Shown here: positions 18,486 to 35,738 of the stretch, piece by piece
How the letters are laid out: each line of letters begins with the position of its first letter
How positions within the stretch are numbered: position 1 is the first letter of the stretch
NCBI GenBank assembly: GCA_030446715.1
Contig: JAUJMU010000012.1
Location: 1 to 64,000 of the forward strand
Direction: 5' to 3'
From: Cytophagales bacterium
Lineage (GTDB): Bacteria; Bacteroidota; Bacteroidia; Cytophagales; 172606-1
Length of the DNA: 64,000 nt
Translations under genes and position numbers: made by a program
Notes under the pieces: generated by a model
What the model was told of the DNA's origin: nothing
Database searches by the model: none
The model's input: the letters and a program-made list of their open reading frames with translations, nothing else

Positions 18486-20847
18486 CGAAGTGACTTCGAC
18501 CGATTTGCCCGTCATCCAACGGCTGGTGAACGAATACGGCTGGAAAGCAGGCGATACCTTGTTGTACCAGCAGACGTACGACATTCCCGAAAACCTGAAA
18601 AAGGACTACGGCCATTTTAGGAACATTCGTCCTGATATTGTCTTGCAGGATTTGAACGGCGAAGTACTGGCCGTGATCGAGAACAACCTGGACCGCGAGA
18701 ACAAAGACCTGCTGAAACTGCGCACCGTGGTTACGCATTTGCTCAAACCACGCTTTTTGTACGCCTGCAGCGCCGAGCGTATTCTGTTTTACGACAACGC
18801 CTGGCGCGGATTAGACGCGGGCGAGTTTAAGCAGGTAAAGGGCTTCATGACCCTGGAAGAGATGAAGCTTAAACTGGAGCAGCAGAAGAAGATTGCCTCC
18901 AACAAGGAAATCACCATTGATACCACCATTGCGGGCGGGTACGATCCCACCGTGGGTAAAGAGCGGTATTACCAGTTGCAGTGCATCCGGACCGTTATCG
19001 AGCACTACAAAGCGGGCAAAGGGAAAATGCTGGTCCACATGGCTACCGGTCTGGGCAAAACCCGGACCGCCGTAGCATTGGTAAAGGCGTTGTTGAGCAG
19101 CGGGCTTGCCAAACGGATTTTGTTCGTTGTAGACCGGAGAATGCTGGCTAAACAATCGGTAGATGACGGCTTTGCCCTCATCAGCCGCGAATACAGCAGC
19201 AGTTGGATTACTACCTCCAATTTCAGAACGAGAAAGCACGCCAGCATTCACGTGGTGGTGATCGACACCCTGGAATTGATTCACAGCGATCTGCCTTCCA
19301 ACTTCTATGATCTGGTCATTGTGGATGAGTGCCACCGCAGCATCAACGTAAACCGAAAACTCATCTTTGATCACTTCTTATGCCCGCGGGTAGGTTTGAC
19401 CGCTACGCCGAGGATTGCCACCCCTAAGGATGGAATGGAGGTCGACGAAGAAGATTTGGCAATCATAGATACCTATAAGTTGTTTGGTTGCGAAACCGGA
19501 GAGCCCGACTTCCAATTCGACATGAACAAGGGCATCAGCGAAGGTTTCCTTGCCCCATATAAACCCATTGAACTGAAATCGTCTTTGGTGACCGAAGCCG
19601 AAGAAAATGGGATTGCGTTCGACCACGTATTAGACCCACGGGAGAAATACGTAACCAGCCTGGGGGCCGAAAAGAAAATTAAATTAGAGCAGTTGAACCG
19701 TAAGTTTATTTCTGAGGAAAACTGCCTGCGAATTGCGGAAGAATTGAAGAAAAATACGCAATACGGGGAGAAGGTGATTTTATTCGGCGTCAGCCAGGCA
19801 CATTGCATTGAGTTGGCAAAAGCTGTGAATAAGGTTTTCGAGAAGGACCTTTCGGAAAAGCCATATTATGCCGAAGCCGTAATTTCGGAGAACAACGAAC
19901 TGAATGAGACGTTGAAAGCATGGTTTAAAAAACCGTACCAGAAGCCGTACGTCGTTACTTCCGTAGACATTTTAAGCACGGGCGTTGACATTCCCTGTGT
20001 TCGCTACGTTGCTTTCGCTGCACTCACCAAATCCGTTGGCAAGTACATTCAGATGGTAGGTCGTGGCACGCGGCTTGATCCCAAGACTGGCAAGTTCAGC
20101 TTTACTGTGCTTGACTTTGTGGGCTTGTGCAAGCGGATGGGGGACAACGGAAAAGGAACTTTAAAAGAAAATATTCAAATAGTCAAGCCGGGGGTCCCAA
20201 AGCCAAAACAGCCTGGAGCAACACCGAAAGGAGAGTATTTCCTAATTGACAATCCCGATCCGGCACACTTGATTCAACGTGTGGAAATCCATGGCGATTC
20301 AATTATTGTAAAAGATAATATTCCTATTGACGAAGCAAAGCGCATTTTTGAGGAGGAGCTAAATAAAGCGCAAGAGCCGGAAATTACCCATTTGAAAGCA
20401 AAAGCTGAACAAAAGGATTATCAGCCAACAGACGAAGAAATGGCAGCACTCATCGAGTGGTTGCGCCAACCAAATACGTTTCTGGACGAAGGGCATTTGC
20501 AGAAAATGTACGACTTTCCCGAAGGATCAGCCTGGGACTTTTTACTTCATGCTTTAGGTAAAAAGAAAATTCCGACACCAAAGGAGCGCATTGAGAAAAG
20601 CTATCTGTCATACATTCATACTTACAACTTTACGGACGAACAGATTGTGGTTCTGAAAAAGATAAAAGATGTATTCGTTTCTAACATTGCCTCCAAGCGT
20701 ACTATAAACGAGAAGGAAATTTTCGGAAACCCAATTTATGAAAGGTTGATTGGCTCATACGAAGACATAAATAAGAAGTTCGATGGCAAGTTGAGTTTGA
20801 TTTTAAATGATTTAAAACAAACGTTTGGCAACCGGCCAACTGCGTAA
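18469..20847 (+). CDS. hsdR: type I restriction HsdR-like helicase subunit
   Basis: 792 aa, GTG start inside the previous gene. The N-terminal restriction domain has RPDIVLQDLNGEVLAVIENN (residues 54-73): the family's D-x(n)-E-x-K reads D56...E71-N-N73, so the catalytic lysine appears to be asparagine. The SF2 motor is complete: Walker A MATGLGKTRT (191-200), DEAH-type box VIVDECHRS, TATP-like GLTATPR, motif V/VI STGVDIPCV and QMVGRGTRLDP. The C-terminus (after ~650) is the helical region that docks on the methylase. Such subunits translocate DNA and cut at a distance from unmodified sites. Shorter than EcoKI-type HsdR but usual for this compact branch. Confidence 0.9.
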   Translation: MAKKINEVTSTDLPVIQRLVNEYGWKAGDTLLYQQTYDIPENLKKDYGHFRNIRPDIVLQDLNGEVLAVIENNLDRENKDLLKLRTVVTHLLKPRFLYACSAERILFYDNAWRGLDAGEFKQVKGFMTLEEMKLKLEQQKKIASNKEITIDTTIAGGYDPTVGKERYYQLQCIRTVIEHYKAGKGKMLVHMATGLGKTRTAVALVKALLSSGLAKRILFVVDRRMLAKQSVDDGFALISREYSSSWITTSNFRTRKHASIHVVVIDTLELIHSDLPSNFYDLVIVDECHRSINVNRKLIFDHFLCPRVGLTATPRIATPKDGMEVDEEDLAIIDTYKLFGCETGEPDFQFDMNKGISEGFLAPYKPIELKSSLVTEAEENGIAFDHVLDPREKYVTSLGAEKKIKLEQLNRKFISEENCLRIAEELKKNTQYGEKVILFGVSQAHCIELAKAVNKVFEKDLSEKPYYAEAVISENNELNETLKAWFKKPYQKPYVVTSVDILSTGVDIPCVRYVAFAALTKSVGKYIQMVGRGTRLDPKTGKFSFTVLDFVGLCKRMGDNGKGTLKENIQIVKPGVPKPKQPGATPKGEYFLIDNPDPAHLIQRVEIHGDSIIVKDNIPIDEAKRIFEEELNKAQEPEITHLKAKAEQKDYQPTDEEMAALIEWLRQPNTFLDEGHLQKMYDFPEGSAWDFLLHALGKKKIPTPKERIEKSYLSYIHTYNFTDEQIVVLKKIKDVFVSNIASKRTINEKEIFGNPIYERLIGSYEDINKKFDGKLSLILNDLKQTFGNRPTA

Positions 20848-20850
20848 TTG

Positions 20851-20940
20851 CGCTAAGGGTAGTCTTCCTAACTACCTTTTCAGGCTAAACTTAGTTTTGC
20901 TTTCTCTGCTCATCCGATGTAAGCCTTCTTTGGTGACCCC
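20851..20940 (+). repeat. dispersed hairpin repeat R2, 5' half only
   Basis: From CGCTAAGGGTAGTC to GGTGACCCC it matches the first half of the full copy at 25255-25450. It includes a small hairpin (GGTAGT / ACTACC) and a second imperfect one (GCTAAAC tta GTTTTGC). It begins three bases after the hsdR stop. After 20940 the sequence leaves the repeat. Confidence 0.8.
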
Positions 20941-21034
20941 TCTGGAGCCACCCCGGCAACGAAGTCCGCAAGCGCATGAGTCTTTTCAAAGAGAGAAGCC
21001 CGGAGATTCTGAAACCGATACTGGAGAGTTGACA

Positions 21035-21382
21035 ATGGCATTTACAGAAAAACAGCTACAGGAAATCAATGCAGCCGGAGAACGCTTTTTGCGAAGCCGC
21101 CGGCCTCCCGCAGAAATCAGGCATCAACTGGATCTGGCCTGCCGGATAGAAGGGCAGAGTGTGCTGGTGTATGAGATAAGGCCGCACTGGCAAAATCTTG
21201 CCGAAACCACGGAAGAACCAGTCGCCAAGACCACTTTTGTCGGGACTCAGGGTATCTGGAAGGTGTATTGGATGCGTGCAGACTTAAAATGGCACAGTTA
21301 TGCACCAAAAGTTGCTGTTAAAACCATCAAGGAATTTTTTGATTTGGTAAGCGAAGATGCCCATTGCTGTTTTTTTGGTTGA
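21035..21382 (+). CDS. DUF3024 family protein
   Basis: 115 aa. The sequence FLRSRRPPAEIRHQLDLACR followed by QSVLVYEIRPHWQN, a central FVGTQGIWKVYWMRADLKWH and the ending FDLVSEDAHCCFFG matches the small DUF3024 family, often found near restriction or phage-defence genes. Function unknown; the W-K-x-Y-W-x-R-x-D-x-K-W-H core suggests a small nucleic-acid or metal-binding fold but this is a guess. The frame is open upstream to 20825, but only the ATG at 21035 gives the family start; the upstream part lies in repeat R2. Confidence 0.7.
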   Translation: MAFTEKQLQEINAAGERFLRSRRPPAEIRHQLDLACRIEGQSVLVYEIRPHWQNLAETTEEPVAKTTFVGTQGIWKVYWMRADLKWHSYAPKVAVKTIKEFFDLVSEDAHCCFFG

Positions 21383-21572
21383 TGAAACAATCCGGCTTTC
21401 AGAACTGAAACTGAAAGACCGCAGGGACCGCGTGCTGGAATTCCACGACATTTGCCAATACCAGAAAGTAATCGTCGCCCTCACGGCAACCGCACGGCTG
21501 ATAGCCGAAATAGATAAAACCGCGGTTGAAGGAAGTGGTAAGTTTAAAACTGATTCAAGCGTCCACGCTTGA
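21357..21572 (+). CDS. short ORF, not recognised, perhaps a fragment
   Basis: 71 codons overlapping the end of the DUF3024 gene by 26 bases. The segment LEFHDICQYQKVIVALTATA followed by RLIAEIDKT has regular amphipathic helices and looks like real protein, perhaps the C-terminal end of a restriction-modification enzyme, but I cannot tie it to a family. No promoter or start signal is convincing. Could equally be noncoding. Confidence 0.3.
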   Translation: MPIAVFLVDETIRLSELKLKDRRDRVLEFHDICQYQKVIVALTATARLIAEIDKTAVEGSGKFKTDSSVHA

Positions 21573-21659
21573 ACGTGCAGCTGATTGAATGAGGTGAGAA
21601 TAATCCTGCCACTGCATGACTCAACATTTGATCTGCAGGTCACCATTTTATTGTTTCCC

Positions 21660-22328
21660 ATGACGATCCCATTGTTCAATAACAAATACCGGATCCCCTC
21701 CGCCCGTCTGCAAGGGTGGAATTATGCAAATGCGGCCATGTATTTCGTCACGATCTGCACCAGGAACCGGGAACATTATTTTGGTGAAATCGTGGATTCG
21801 GTTCTGCAATCCACCGAAATTGGAAAATTTGCCCATGATGAATGGTACAACACCGCGGCGTTACGGCCGGACATGCATCTGGAACTGGGCGAATTTGTGG
21901 TGATGCCCAACCACGTGCACGGCATTATCATCATCGGGGACAATGGGTATAATTCCTCGCAGGAAAGGGGGTATAATGTAGGTGGTGATGGTGACGATAA
22001 CCGTACCCGTAGAGACGCAATGCATTGCGTCTCTACTCCCAACGCCAACACCCCCATTCCCAACGACGCGGCCTGTACAGACGCAAGGCATTGCGTCTCT
22101 GCCGGATACAAAAACCAATTTGCCCCGCAATCGAAAAACCTGTCGGCCATCATCCGGGGGTATAAATCGGTGGTAACCACCTGCGCCCGGAGAAACAATC
22201 TGGATTTTGGCTGGCAACCCCGTTTTTATGACCATATCATCCGTTCAGCGGACAGTTACCACCGGATTTCCGGTTACATCACAAATAACCCGGCCCGGTG
22301 GAAGGAGGATACATTTTATCAGTCATGA
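21660..22328 (+). CDS. REP-associated tyrosine transposase (RAYT) carrying palindromes in its ORF
   Basis: 222 aa member of the Y1/HUH transposases (TnpA_REP). The N-terminus RIPSARLQGWNYANAAMYFV then TICTRNREHYFG is typical; the HUH pair is H85/H87 in VVMPNHVHGIIII, and the likely catalytic tyrosine is Y190 in WQPRFYDHIIRS, followed by RISGYITNNPARW. RAYTs bind and nick REP-type palindromes scattered through a genome. Residues ~95-152, between the HUH and the tyrosine, are an insertion encoded largely by two palindromes (22009-22036 and 22078-22101), in frame and without stops. Start at 21660 rather than 21585 because residues before it do not fit the family. Confidence 0.9.
   Translation: MTIPLFNNKYRIPSARLQGWNYANAAMYFVTICTRNREHYFGEIVDSVLQSTEIGKFAHDEWYNTAALRPDMHLELGEFVVMPNHVHGIIIIGDNGYNSSQERGYNVGGDGDDNRTRRDAMHCVSTPNANTPIPNDAACTDARHCVSAGYKNQFAPQSKNLSAIIRGYKSVVTTCARRNNLDFGWQPRFYDHIIRSADSYHRISGYITNNPARWKEDTFYQS
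22009..22036. repeat. perfect 28-bp REP-like palindrome inside RAYT gene
   Basis: Perfect inverted repeat: the 14-base arm GTAGAGACGCAATG is followed directly by its complement. Encodes part of the RRDAMHCVST peptide. The core AGACGCAA/TTGCGTCT is shared with the second palindrome 41 bases downstream. Confidence 0.9.
22078..22101. repeat. second REP-like palindrome inside RAYT gene
   Basis: Arms AGACGCAA (22079-22086) and TTGCGTCT (22091-22098) around four bases (GGCA). Same core as the perfect palindrome at 22009-22036, with outer arms less well paired. Encodes TDARHCVSAG in the transposase frame. Confidence 0.85.
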
Positions 22329-22393
22329 GGGAATGGGAAATTTGTGTACCGGAACAAAAAAACAGTAACTTGTTGTGATAAACAGAGAATTCA

Positions 22394-23182
22394 TTGGCCA
22401 GCGATTACGACAAGATACTCAAAGAAAATATTGCGGCTTTACTTCTGCCGCTGACTGAAAAGTACCTGAACATCAAAATCATTGATAGCCGGGAACTGAA
22501 AGACAAGCTGCAAACCACCATAGAAAAAGAGCCGGACTTCATCCGGATTGTGAAAACGGATACTGATGAAGAGTTTATTCTTCACATAGAGTTTCAGACG
22601 CAGGATGAAGAAGGGATGATATACCGCATGCAGGAGTATTTTGGGCTGCTTCGCCGCAAGCACGGCCTACCGGTGAGGCAGTTTGTGATTTATCTGGGTA
22701 AGCAACCTTCAAGAATGCAGACACAATTAGCGCCTGAGGAAGTATTTACCGGCTTTGACCTGAAAAGCCTGCGGGATTATTCCTACGAAAGCTTGCTGGA
22801 TTCACAGGTTCCGGAAGAGATTATTCTGGCTATCCTGAGTGATCTTCGAGAGGAAAAACCTGAAGAAGTCATCCGGCAGATATTAAGCCGGTTACAAGGA
22901 ATCGGTATGGACCAGATTACGTTAAGAAAGTATATCCGGCAATTATCCATGCTTGCCAGATTACGAAAACTGACTAAAGAAACACAGAAACAGATAAAAG
23001 ATATGGGATTTACCTATAATATCACTGAAGATTATCTCTACCAGGAAGGTCAGCAAACAAAAGCAAATGAGTTGATTATTGAAATGTTAAAAGACGGGAC
23101 ATTGACAATTGAGAAAATTGCCTCATTAACCAAAGTGCCGGTAGAACACGTAAAGCAGATAGCAGAGGAACTGAAAAAGTAA
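22394..23182 (+). CDS. Rpn-family (YhgA-like) PD-(D/E)XK nuclease/transposase protein
   Basis: 262 aa with probable TTG start. The pattern of an N-terminal PD-(D/E)XK fold is seen: PDFIRIVKTDTDEEFILHIE then FQTQ (residues 47-70; E66 and Q68 form the E-x-Q variant common in this group), then YRMQEYFGLLRRKHGLPVRQ with FVIYLG, and a helical C-terminal half with a likely HTH near the end (TIEKIASLTKVPVEHVKQIA). Rpn proteins are recombination-promoting DNases, often in multiple copies beside mobile DNA. It lies between a RAYT gene and a decayed RAYT copy. No ATG gives the family start; TTG at 22394 does. Confidence 0.75.
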   Translation: MASDYDKILKENIAALLLPLTEKYLNIKIIDSRELKDKLQTTIEKEPDFIRIVKTDTDEEFILHIEFQTQDEEGMIYRMQEYFGLLRRKHGLPVRQFVIYLGKQPSRMQTQLAPEEVFTGFDLKSLRDYSYESLLDSQVPEEIILAILSDLREEKPEEVIRQILSRLQGIGMDQITLRKYIRQLSMLARLRKLTKETQKQIKDMGFTYNITEDYLYQEGQQTKANELIIEMLKDGTLTIEKIASLTKVPVEHVKQIAEELKK

Positions 23183-23205
23183 AAAACCTTGCCTGACAGT
23201 AGGCA

Positions 23206-23308
23206 GACTTTCCGGACCGCCGCTGTAAGGCCTGACATGCATGTGGAATCGGGCCAATTTGTGGTGATGCTCAACCACATACACGGGATCATCGGGGCCA
23301 ATGATTAG
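23206..23308 (+). pseudogene. fragment of a second RAYT gene
   Basis: About 100 bases closely similar to 21845-21940 of the RAYT gene: RTAAVRPDMHVESGQFVVML then NHIHGIIGAND stop, against NTAALRPDMHLELGEFVVMP then NHVHGIIIIGDN. It keeps the HUH region but no start, no tyrosine domain. It joins repeat R2 directly at its stop codon. Confidence 0.8.
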
Positions 23309-23414
23309 CGTTCCCGCCTGAAAGCGTCCCCGAGGCCGATCCACCGGTACGGGCTCCTTGTACCAAAGGCAAAAGCAGACACCTGCGCCAGTTCAGTACT
23401 TCAGCGGGATTTAC
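23309..23414 (+). repeat. dispersed hairpin repeat R2, 3' half only
   Basis: Matches the second half of the full copy at 25255-25450: GCCTGAAAGCGT, CCCGAGGC.GAT.CACC, GCTCCTTGT, CAAAGGCAAA, CTGCGC.AGTTCAG, ACTTCAG.GGGATTTAC. The first half is absent. The 270 bases from here to the gene at 23686 are GC-rich, with nothing I recognise. Confidence 0.75.
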
Positions 23415-23685
23415 GTATATTCAACCTGTGAACTATCAGGGGGCAAAAAAATAAACTGGAAGGACGGCTTACGGGCCCTTTACTGCATTCTGAAGTATAG
23501 TCGTCTGTGGACGTGCCGGGGCCGGGCCACGGCTCCCGTGCTGCCCGGAGCGGACAAGATACCCCTGGCCGGACCAGCCGGAACCCGTCGTGCTACAGGA
23601 TGTGTAACGCCGCCCGTCAACACCGTTACCCAAGCCCCCCTCAGATAACTTTCTTTCACCCAACCCTTACAATGCTTTCCCTACC

Positions 23686-25260
23686 ATGTTTGCTTCGATT
23701 CCAATAGCCTTCCGGCGTGTCGTGCCGGCCGCCGATGGGCTGGTAGCCATCAGCGTTTTCCTGCTGCTCTTGCTGCTGGATAGGCTGATGTACCACCACA
23801 GTGTAAAGGACGCCGGTTTTTTTTACGAATACGGCCGCGTTGCCGAAGCAGTACTTGCGGGCAAGGGGCACAGGGATGTGTTCGGCACGGCCAGCGGCCC
23901 AACGGCTTGGGTGCTACCAGGATTTTTGTACCTGGTGGTGCTGCTGTACTGGATGTTCGGTGTAAAAACCAAGCTGGCCCTGGCGGCGGCCGTGCTGATC
24001 GGGTACGCACTTGTGTCCCTTACGGTTTATTTCCTGCTCCGGTTGCTGCGCCTGACAGAATTTGGGGTATACCGGTACTGGATTGTGCCCATTTTCCTGA
24101 TAAGCTTTCTGATCACTAGCTGGCCGGGGCCGCAGGATTTACACGACATTGAGTTCATGCTGTTCCTGAACGTTTTTACTCTGTACAGCCTTGTGGCCTA
24201 CGTTCAGCGGGGCAGTTGGTACAACTTGCCTTTGCTGGCGGTGGTGCTGCCACTCACCAACCCGATCATTGCCCTGGCGTTTATTGTGGTGCTGGCCGGG
24301 CTGATATTGCGGGAACTCTACGGGCAGGGCGAACTGCTGAAGCCGCAATGGTATCGCCGCCCGAGGGTAGTGGCATCCGCATGGGTATCTGGCCTGGTGG
24401 CTGCGTGTTTTGCCCTGAGCACCGGCGCCTGGGGCTACCACAATTGGCAAACGATGGGCCGCTTCATTCCGTCCAAGTCCAACTTGTGGTACGAGTTCTA
24501 CCAGTCCAACGCCTACGACGCCGACGGCATACTGGGCTCAAATACCTTTGTAAAACATCATCCCAACGAGAACCGGCCCGAACGCCAGCGCTACACCGAA
24601 CAGGGTGAAATAAGTTATCTGGACAGGTACAGGGAGCGGTCCGCGGCGTTTCTCGGGGAGCAGCGGGCCGTTTACCTGAAAAAAGTGCGGAACCGCCTCA
24701 TTTTTGCCTTTCTCTGGAGCGGTGGATGCTGGAACGCAGGTGACGGGCACGTGCCGCTTACCGGCTTTTCGGCTGCCGATAGCCTGTCGCTGGTACAGGC
24801 CGGGTTGGTAGACGAAAAAGCAACCTCCACTTCCCGGAATCGCTGGCTCTGTCTGGACATGGAAGCCGACCAGTTTGCCGCGGCGGTGAGGCCGCTCCGG
24901 CTTGAGCAGCAAGCCGCCTTAACACAGGACTGGCAAGCCGCAAAACAGTACCTGCTGCGAGACGACTTCCGCCCGGTGGGCCTGGCCAGGGCCGTGCTGT
25001 ATTCGCTGATTCCTTTTGTATCGCTATTGCTCGGCCTGGTCGTACCCGCTATCCGCCGCGAAACCCTGTTCGGGGCCACTGCCGTCCTGTACTTGATCTA
25101 TTCGGCGCCCTACCTGCTGCTGGCCCACTACCCACGCTACCAATTTCCGCTGATAGGGCTACAGTCGGTCCTGATCTTCCTTGCTTCTGCTTTTCTATTG
25201 CAACGGGTGCAGGTGCTTTACCAGAAAGCAACCACCCGAAAAAAGTACCCCCCCCGCTAA
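23686..25260 (+). CDS. polytopic membrane protein, probable GT-C glycosyltransferase
   Basis: 524 aa with about 10-12 predicted membrane helices (for example VAISVFLLLLLLDRLMY, FLYLVVLLYWMFGV, VLIGYALVSLTVYFLLRLL, VLIFLASAFLLQRV). The luminal-looking loop GRVAEAVLAGKGHRDVFGTA then SGPTAWVLPGFLYL resembles the 'NLL.G.GF..PF....PTAW..P.YP' segment of GT39-type bacterial glycosyltransferases that use polyprenyl-phosphate sugars. There is no clear acidic D-E catalytic pair in the first loop, so the enzymatic call is tentative. The gene is bracketed by repeats R2 at both ends; the 3' one overlaps its stop codon. Confidence 0.6.
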   Translation: MFASIPIAFRRVVPAADGLVAISVFLLLLLLDRLMYHHSVKDAGFFYEYGRVAEAVLAGKGHRDVFGTASGPTAWVLPGFLYLVVLLYWMFGVKTKLALAAAVLIGYALVSLTVYFLLRLLRLTEFGVYRYWIVPIFLISFLITSWPGPQDLHDIEFMLFLNVFTLYSLVAYVQRGSWYNLPLLAVVLPLTNPIIALAFIVVLAGLILRELYGQGELLKPQWYRRPRVVASAWVSGLVAACFALSTGAWGYHNWQTMGRFIPSKSNLWYEFYQSNAYDADGILGSNTFVKHHPNENRPERQRYTEQGEISYLDRYRERSAAFLGEQRAVYLKKVRNRLIFAFLWSGGCWNAGDGHVPLTGFSAADSLSLVQAGLVDEKATSTSRNRWLCLDMEADQFAAAVRPLRLEQQAALTQDWQAAKQYLLRDDFRPVGLARAVLYSLIPFVSLLLGLVVPAIRRETLFGATAVLYLIYSAPYLLLAHYPRYQFPLIGLQSVLIFLASAFLLQRVQVLYQKATTRKKYPPR

Positions 25261-34129: not shown

Positions 34130-34855
34130 TTAAATCAGATCAGATTTTGCCAAAGGTATATTCAGCCTGGCAACAAGCTTTTGGAAAAAGTCAAACTGGT
34201 CAAAAGGTTTTTTTTCCACGATCAGGCAGGGCATACCGGCATGCCCGGCACAGACGCCATCGAGTTCGGGCCGGTCTCCAATGAAAAGGCATTCCTGCGG
34301 CAACACTTTCAGCTGCCGGACAATGCGGAACAGGCCTGCCGGATCGGGTTTAAGGCGGTCTATCCCGGGATCAGTGGAACTGACTACCAGATCAGCTTTC
34401 AGGCTCATTGCCTCCAGTTTATCCTCCGCCTGATAGTCTGAATAAATGGCGATTTTTATGTCCTGCCGGCGGAGGACGGCAAACAATTCCCGTATTCCCG
34501 GATAGGTACAATCCGCTATGTACCTGAGAGGGTATTCAAACATCCAGTACTGTACAACTTTTTTTACCTGACCTGCAGAAAAATTCCCTTTCTCCGTGCA
34601 CCACGTGTATTGGGCATTCTCCATGTCGGGGCAGTAGATGCCCGCCCTATTCTCTCTATCGGCCCGGAAGTGATGTAATATTAAGAGCTCATTCAGCCTC
34701 CAGGGCCGCGTCAGGTAGTAAGAAAGCAAAGAAAACAACATCTTCTTCCGCAGCCTAGATTGGCTGTAAAGGGTGCCGTCTACGTCAAAAATAACAACCT
34801 TGAGTCGCTGCCAATCTATAGACATCTCATTTTGCGGAGTTACGCTGTTGCTCAT
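34130..34855 (-). CDS. HAD-superfamily hydrolase
   Basis: 241 aa. Motif I is VVIFDVDGTLYSQ (nucleophile D24, acid D26), motif II near IKIAIYSDYQAEDK, motif IV in FIGDRPELDGVCA. The cap is the C1 helical type. It precedes the UbiA-like gene by 32 bases. In the pathway I infer, a phosphatase is needed to remove the 5-phosphate from polyprenyl-phosphoryl-5-phosphoribose; this protein is a candidate, replacing the PAP2 phosphatase used by mycobacteria. That role is inference from position. Confidence 0.85.
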   Translation of the reverse strand: MSNSVTPQNEMSIDWQRLKVVIFDVDGTLYSQSRLRKKMLFSLLSYYLTRPWRLNELLILHHFRADRENRAGIYCPDMENAQYTWCTEKGNFSAGQVKKVVQYWMFEYPLRYIADCTYPGIRELFAVLRRQDIKIAIYSDYQAEDKLEAMSLKADLVVSSTDPGIDRLKPDPAGLFRIVRQLKVLPQECLFIGDRPELDGVCAGHAGMPCLIVEKKPFDQFDFFQKLVARLNIPLAKSDLI

Positions 34856-35738
34856 ATTATTTATCTTTTATACTCCAAATGCTTGTAAGGTAATCAGTCA
34901 AAAGTAACTTTATGCGCTGTTGACATTCATTTAATTTTGCAATAATCTGGGATTAATCTGCCCCGATACAGATCGTGTCTCAACTTGCCGGAAAACCTTC
35001 ATAAGGTTTTGAATCTTATGGAGGTTACGTACAATTTTGCAATTCCGGAAAGTTCAGACGCACAATATATTTCAGACGCACCCTATATATAGACTGCGTC
35101 TGAGCCTTTCGGAAGACCTGTAGGTTTTTAAGTACCCGGACGGAAGCAAACCGGTATTTTCCGGCCTGCCGGCAGACCAGCCGTATTCCCTCTCTGAATC
35201 ATTCAATCCGGATAAGGCGATAAGGCAGAAGTATTGCACAAGCCGGTTTGGCAATTGCCGGGCTATCTTTGGTTTCAGATCAAATGCCGCCGGTACCGGA
35301 GGTCGGTCAGGCGCAGGTCAGTAAACTTCCTTTACAGATTTCTTTGCACACCGGGGCTGGTGGCCCGGCTGGGGAAATATTTTTGTCAGAGCAAGCCTCG
35401 TCCGGCTGGCGGTGAACCTGTCTGGCCAAAGTAAAAAATTTATAATAATTTACCAAGCAGTAAAGATTCTTCTGAGCCTTGCCGGAAAGATTTTCGGGTC
35501 TGTGCCATGCCATTATAAATTCTTCAGAAGCCGTATTTGACAATTCAGGGTAATTATGGTATAAAAGTCAGAATCGGGCTATTTGAAGTTGTAGATTTTT
35601 TTAACAATAAGTTTAAATTTTTATGAATTCCGGTTTTTGTTTCAGCCGGAAAGTAGCTGACGGAAAAAGGAAAGTGATCCGCGTGAGTAGTATTGTTGCA
35701 GTTCTTTTTAACGGATCCGGCAACAGAAAGAAAAAGAT
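34856..35738. other. 883-bp intergenic region, no gene seen
   Basis: Open frames here are short and have no recognisable content. The only structure I see is the AGACGCA repeat cluster at 35053-35103 and a loose inverted repeat near 35464-35530 (ATTCTTCTGAGCC / GGCTTCTGAAGAAT). This gap separates the UbiA-HAD-GtrA-GT39 set from the main glycosyltransferase run, so the set may have its own promoter here. Confidence 0.5.
35053..35103. repeat. AGACGCA direct and inverted repeats
   Basis: TTCAGACGCA occurs at 35053-35062 and again at 35071-35080; TGCGTCTGA at 35095-35103 is the complement of TCAGACGCA. The core AGACGCA/TGCGTCT is the same as in the REP-like palindromes of the RAYT gene at 22 kb. 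It could be a diverged REP, or an operator for the divergent spacer. Confidence 0.55.

Follow-up and report, generated by a model that had tools for sequence, protein, structure and literature searches.

The window, i.e., the whole stretch of 64,000 nucleotides analysed here, carries a gene for a REP-associated tyrosine transposase (RAYT, or TnpA-REP) whose coding sequence holds two REP palindromes in frame (Table 1). The ORF begins with the ATG at 21660, and an upstream TTG at 21585 is a possible alternative start. As expected for RAYTs, the protein bears the HUH motif (residues 85-87) and a single catalytic tyrosine, Y206, in the YI..NP context; in an alignment of 60 sequences of relatives, H85, H87, Q186, R195, Y206, N210 and P211 were invariant. 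No Pfam match to the protein was obtained at E 0.001, and the NCBIfam model NF047646 (REP-associated tyrosine transposase) gave 49.4 bits vs. a cut-off of 80, with the best stretch at residues 157-213. We attribute this shortfall to the loop described below and to divergence, and regard the threshold as a database matter rather than a biological trait. The alignment profile matched one PDB sequence, E. coli TnpA-REP (4er8_A, E 3.1e-8), and the Foldseek search with the AlphaFold model (mean pLDDT 82.6) had the same 4er8_A as its best match (E 6.1e-6; TM-score, normalised by target length, 0.57), followed by the IS608 and ISDra2 transposases. It is because of these profile and predicted-fold matches to 4er8, a REP-bound RAYT, and not because of the NF047646 score, that we assign the protein to the RAYTs, in agreement with the initial annotation made from the letters of the window.

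Furthermore, NHVH, WQ and YITNNP fit the three motifs of TnpA-REP subclass 2.4 (NH[IFV]H, WQ and YIxNNP), and the variable HuH-Y insertion with in-frame REPs, also a trait of this subclass, is present in the window RAYT. According to Quentin et al. 2018 (PMC6006769), REPs inserted in frame between HuH and Y are found predominantly in subclass 2.4, and RAYT group 4 of Bertels et al. 2017 is placed there. Since the gene fits the three sequence motifs, we file it, as judged by them, as a new example of the known subclass 2.4 phenomenon.

Table 1. Coordinates of the features discussed, numbered from the first letter of the window.
Feature	Position	Strand	Description or basis
RAYT / TnpA-REP gene (subclass 2.4-like)	21660..22328	+	222 aa; NHVH 84-87, WQ 185-186, Y206 in YITNNP
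Low-confidence, predicted disordered loop (residues 101-150) holding both REPs	21960..22109	+	pLDDT; alignment gap to L061
In-frame double-foot REP	22009..22036		perfect 28-bp palindrome, GTAG at both 5' ends; read RRDAMHCVST
Second in-frame REP copy, imperfect	22075..22102		feet GTAC and GCAG at its two ends; read TDARHCVSA
Remnant of a further RAYT (62% identity to residues 61-94)	23204..23305	+	sequence match

The first palindrome consists of two 14-nt arms that are 100% complementary and have no spacer between them. The 20-nt core of the second copy (22079-22098) differs from the first core by one mismatch; over 29 nt the copies are 90% identical, and their starts lie 66 nt apart, so that both share a common reading frame. 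By coordinates, they encode residues 117-126 and 139-148, between H85/H87 and Y206, and the frame stays open through both. At up to 3 mismatches, the REP core has 2 matches in the window vs. 0.01 expected. The palindrome region is predicted to fold strongly as single-stranded DNA (z -8.9), and the RNA fold of 21990-22120 reaches -52.4 kcal/mol (z -7.6), the two copies pairing with each other into one long mRNA hairpin; an effect of this predicted hairpin on the RAYT expression is plausible. In the AlphaFold model, the mean pLDDT per ten residues is 48-54 over residues 101-150, as in disordered loops, and mostly above 90 in the core. Both palindromes fall within this loop, which is predicted to be disordered and which the model places after the HUH strand (85-92) and ahead of the helix that comes next (161-178). 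The perfect palindrome, its same-core companion and their placement in an open frame were thus correctly noticed in the initial annotation, and strong folding of the mRNA, which it envisaged, is likewise predicted.

Other features of the window were inspected as well. The intact gene is followed by a 262-aa ORF (22394-23182) with no Pfam or NCBIfam match at E 0.001 and then, at a distance of about 0.9 kb, by the remnant of the further RAYT. The Rfam search of 20500-24500 returned 2 matches at E up to 1, both far below the gathering scores. The AGACGCA cluster at 35053-35103, initially described as related to the palindromes, was considered as a REP relative and rejected: it consists of two tandem copies of an 18-nt unit (TTCAGACGCAC...) and lies within an imperfect inverted repeat (35043-35114), it has no REP-core match at up to 3 mismatches, and AGACGCAA is found in the window at chance level (46 matches at up to 1 mismatch vs. 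49.6 expected). No ORF of at least 100 aa runs over the 35053-35103 repeat, and the inverted repeat is situated about 190 bp upstream of the minus-strand ORF 34130-34855.

The search of the 6.43-Mb genome with up to 2 mismatches, which the initial annotation had proposed for the 28-mer, yielded 50 forward and 49 reverse matches and revealed a dispersed family with GTAG or GTAC feet. The matches are mainly of two versions, AGACGCAATGCATTGCGTCT and AGACGCCATGCATGGCGTCT, which are distinguished by compensated base changes. We counted 54 distinct copies in the stretches around every listed match, a count that more diverged copies elsewhere would escape; the strict pattern GAGACGN{6,16}CGTCTC, found at 11 places in the same genome, misses most of them. 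To classify the copies, the longest open frame was dropped as an intragenic test, long frames being common in this genome, and codon usage trained on 31 window genes was applied instead to both flanks of each copy. Only 2 of the 54 lay in an unbroken frame scoring as coding on both sides, and both are those in the window RAYT. The other 52 were not scored as coding, which makes the family a dispersed, mostly non-coding multicopy palindrome, as REPs are. Twelve of them have frames open over 160 nt on both sides and score below 0; a few could be coding, because in this test such low values are also obtained for about 5% of true gene segments. The commonest dispersed unit bears the GTAC foot at one end (33/54 copies, among them 3 whose opposite end is GTAG), and GTAG is present at one or both ends of 16 copies and at both ends of 8, including 22009-22036. 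We infer that a GT[AG]G-based search, such as that described in PMC6006769, would miss the GTAC units. Within about 1.5 kb of the window RAYT ORF, no further core copy was found at up to 3 mismatches, so that the flanking REPs by which a REPtron is recognised are absent there.

The distribution of the copies bears on a rival explanation of their position, namely, that REPs go in anywhere and that the RAYT loop is one tolerant site among many, as with Rickettsia palindromic elements and the intragenic REPs described by Di Nocera et al. 2013. The predicted disorder of the loop agrees with such a plain landing, and REPs inside unrelated genes are already in print (PMC3733652). Yet with 52 of 54 copies not scored as coding and the other two both in the RAYT, the explanation is disfavoured for this genome, and we consider it unlikely.

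The initial annotation had called for a comparison with the closest RAYT lacking residues 95-152, and a congeneric RAYT (L061, genome G002) was compared. L061 is 68% identical to the window protein in its N- and C-terminal parts and aligns along it except for the loop segment, lacking most of 21960-22109 and both palindromes. The identical 28-mer is nevertheless present in this gene at another place: it follows FGEIV, in frame, in the N-terminal half of the protein, and more copies are located just upstream and downstream of the gene. L061 is decayed (it contains a TAA, and the second His of HUH is replaced), and we take it as evidence of presence, absence and relocation rather than as a clean empty site. 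Because L061 is without the segment, and because loops free of palindromes are shorter (see below), the palindromes look like insertions, and like ones that relocate. Besides the HUH-Y loop, L061, L055 and L081 have REP-derived sequence in frame at a second permissive site, which follows FGEIV, FGDIV or FGEII in their N-terminal halves. In-frame tandem expansions of palindrome-derived peptides, e.g., NQDIAS, LQNIAS and GVSNLTNEEN, were observed in L055, L064 and L056/L140 (genomes G081, G039 and G072); L055, whose frame is 365 aa long, has an expansion also at the N-terminal site after FGDIV.

To see how common such loops are, we surveyed RAYTs from two sets. The set of relatives comprised 30 loci and 60 further stretches, 194 genomes of relatives having been searched and at least 63 of them having a RAYT match among the matches listed. 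The genome_contigs set comprised 80 loci, the best 80 of 231; the palindrome-encoded DAMHCVST was among the six seeds of its scan, which biases this set, whereas the set of relatives was not found by that seed. A stricter motif filter retained 101 genes; relaxed, it gave 123, of which 120 non-redundant RAYTs with the frame open from HUH to the tyrosine, both RAYTs of this genome included, formed the sample. L061 and other genes interrupted by a stop between HUH and the tyrosine were left out. The results showed an excess of palindromes in the loops: an arm score of at least 8 was reached in 90/120 RAYTs vs. 118/2491 coding windows of the same length taken from long frames nearby. By set, the counts were 39/56 for the relatives and 51/64 for genome_contigs (coding windows, 41/1104 and 77/1387), and the N-terminal parts of the same proteins gave 8/56 and 4/64. 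At a score of at least 10, the corresponding loop counts were 17/56 and 43/64 vs. 8/1104 and 16/1387 in coding windows. Loops with a palindrome were longer than those without (median 82 vs. 46 aa in the relatives and 74 vs. 52 aa in genome_contigs), and 30 of the 120 loops had no palindrome of score 8 or more. An equivalent non-palindromic segment in all close relatives would have spoken against the initial annotation; the relatives have palindromic segments or shorter loops. A GT[AG]G foot was present at one or both ends of 79 of the 90 palindromes (48 at both) vs. 16% of random positions. By codon phase of the foot, 41 were in phase 0, 25 in phase 1, one in phase 2 and 21 had no foot (n=88), a distribution shaped in part by the filter, which required open frames, phase 2 giving a stop.

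The association of each in-gene palindrome with its own enzyme was examined in the gene flanks. The in-gene core recurred within 1.5 kb of its own gene in 37/90 cases vs. 21/6848 swaps with dissimilar palindromes, where neighbouring RAYT genes were unmasked and may inflate the 37; in the remaining 53 cases, the window RAYT among them, the flanks had no in-gene core. Recurrence at the own gene so far above that of swapped palindromes is a further argument against indiscriminate landing in tolerant places. In six genomes with at least two palindromic RAYTs (arm score of at least 7), the core was found in own flanks in 6/15 cases and in the flanks of the other RAYT in 3/22, a weak difference; in G003, own flanks held it in 0/3.

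The genome under study itself has two RAYT enzymes and two REP families. The second RAYT (L138, G000:C18:521390-521905) carries a different REP in its loop, GGGCAGACACAGGGGTCTGCCC (GGGCAGACAC stands for the REP of this second RAYT), which recurs about 120 bp before the matched stretch and, inverted, about 80 bp after it. The upstream copy lies inside the long open frame and may be N-terminal coding sequence or leader DNA. In G002, one RAYT is accompanied by the first family and another (C188) has GGGCGTATGCAATTCGCCC between its two matched halves, both families having further copies in that genome. Among the 194 genomes, the window REP core at up to 1 mismatch was detected in 12 (own included), and 10 of these have a RAYT match. 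All 8 genomes with at least two copies have one, as do 7/7 genomes with the GGGCGTATGC / GGGCGTATGCAATACGCCC core, vs. a background of 63/194, kinship being uncontrolled in both comparisons (G039, G079, G117 and G142 belong to one genus). Hence the palindrome is not the common genomic repeat unrelated to RAYTs that would have undermined the initial annotation. Of its suggestion that these are the enzyme's own substrate sites, one part stands, namely, that the palindromes form a dispersed REP family associated with RAYTs; that they serve as substrate is suggested by this association. In G009, which is rich in double-foot REPs, 88 strict TAGAGAC...GTCTCTA copies were counted; among the places listed there, two core families are represented, GCCCAAATTGGGC and GTTGCATGCAAC, the former being present both within the C5 RAYT and on either side of it.

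We then asked how the palindromes behave along the RAYT phylogeny. An earlier tree of 83/120 rows had dropped proteins with short C-termini; the tree used here includes 117/120 proteins, with most of the loop excluded. The palindrome type followed this tree, with 13 changes among 65 rows typed by our own string rules vs. a minimum of 32 in 300 shuffles, and the GTAGAGAC types alone required 10 changes vs. a shuffle minimum of 19. This is partly trivial, the palindrome being co-inherited with the gene. The presence or absence of a palindrome followed the tree weakly (21 changes, a value reached by 4/300 shuffles).

The 28-mer GTAGAGACGCAATGCATTGCGTCTCTAC is identical in 13/120 RAYT loops, that of the window gene included, 12 of the 13 coming from the set biased by the DAMHCVST seed. 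Outside the loop, these 13 genes share a median of 59% of amino acids, 65% of nucleotides and 59% of third bases at identical residues. The 28-mer occurs in two codon phases (11 genes and 2 genes) and is read as VETQCIASL or RDAMHCVST accordingly; therefore, it is not a single peptide that is being kept. An accidental palindrome, or a coding constraint on a peptide motif, for which the open frame speaks and nothing more, is in effect refuted by this double reading, as well as by the shuffles and the dispersed non-coding copies.

What is kept might instead be the DNA itself. The in-gene REP would then be a selected cis element, either a seed travelling with its enzyme on horizontal transfer or an operator or mRNA hairpin limiting the enzyme's own expression. 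Several observations point this way besides the strong predicted RNA hairpin and the identity of the 28-mer in genes as diverged as those above. Six other RAYTs share AGACAAGGCATGCCTTGTCT at median identities of 62% (aa) and 68% (nt), in one phase. In 177 non-independent pairs with at least 62% core identity, the median identity fell from 0.81 in the palindrome to 0.69 in core nucleotides and 0.47 in the remainder of the loop. The RAYTs of G010, G167 and G175, genomes of two families, have the same in-gene 20-mer; the 7.1 Mb of G167 contain no second copy even when 3 mismatches are allowed, and its congener G175 has, besides the copy in the gene, another immediately downstream. Since the single core copy of G167 lies inside the gene, a dispersed donor pool is not always present. 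Against selection, the 30 palindrome-free loops indicate that the element is not required, its position and frame are variable, and recent re-insertion gives the same pattern. Moreover, the 28-mer genes come mostly from the seeded scan, and, in the pairwise comparison, the palindrome exceeded the core in only 107 of the 177 pairs. We therefore hold it possible but doubtful that a cognate REP is retained in RAYT coding sequences as a selected DNA or mRNA element, making the enzyme and its substrate a self-contained, horizontally portable unit that seeds new REP populations or throttles its own expression.

Taken together, the results lead us to the view, to which we assign a probability of roughly 0.7, that the window gene encodes a RAYT of the subclass 2.4 type with two resident REPs inserted in frame in a probably disordered HUH-Tyr loop, and that the enzyme most likely mobilises that REP family. 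In PMC8266576 and PMC6006769, TnpA-REP is described to cleave and rejoin single-stranded REP, the foot tetranucleotide guiding the cleavage. Probably, the window RAYT would likewise cleave and join single-stranded REP DNA at the foot. It would act preferentially near its own gene, in cis, such that REPs would land repeatedly in and around it. Surviving insertions would be those in protein-tolerant sites (the HUH-Y loop and the other one, behind FGEIV), provided that they are in one of the two codon phases in which no TAG stop arises. From then on, the palindrome would travel with its enzyme; since the predicted loop is peripheral, activity of the protein is expected to be retained. The initial notion of an element inserted into its own gene without destroying it accords with the in-frame REPs in an intact ORF, and the phenomenon is in print (PMC6006769). 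Against this view stand the lack of a further core copy within about 1.5 kb of the window gene, the single core copy of G167 and the GTAC foot on most resident copies (33/54): as reported in PMC8266576, this foot redirected the cleavage site of the Marinomonas enzyme and abolished cleavage by the S. maltophilia one.

These findings touch upon a long-standing question, that of the spread of REPs and the persistence of RAYTs. Even ahead of experiments, the palindrome within a RAYT gene points to the REP that is likely to be its cognate, so that enzyme-substrate specificity becomes testable across a diverged family. A gene that contains its presumed substrate also raises the question of whether the site is kept for seeding or for feedback. 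If it is merely tolerated, the palindromes are a record of repeated local REP insertion and mark dispensable loops of the enzyme.

The phenomenon as such was published in 2018 (PMC6006769). What is added here is the survey of the loops, the flanks, the tree and the shared 28-mer; we found no paper testing the in-gene REP against the gene's flanks or its conservation at the DNA level, though parts of this may be in Figure S10 of the supplement to Quentin et al. The window RAYT resembles subclass 2.4 in the motifs NH[IFV]H, WQ and YIxNNP, in the long variable HuH-Y insertion, in the double-foot REPs and in having REPs in frame within tnpAREP; it differs in the GTAC foot on most resident copies and on the second in-gene copy, and in that the congener has a REP at another in-frame site, after FGEIV. 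With E. coli TnpA-REP (4er8) and the REPtron it shares the HUH-Y1 fold and REPs with a tetranucleotide foot. In E. coli, as described in PMC6006769 and PMC8266576, REPs flank the gene and their stem is bulged, whereas here the palindromes are perfect or near-perfect and located within the gene, with no copy detected in about 1.5 kb on either side. Finally, the case bears resemblance to two kinds of repeat covered by Di Nocera et al. 2013, the GTAG/CGTC REPs within genes and the Rickettsia palindromic elements, which are likewise short in-frame palindromes thought to be tolerated in loops. Hosts named for them are unrelated genes, e.g., for DNA repair, whereas the host here is the presumed transposase of the REP itself.
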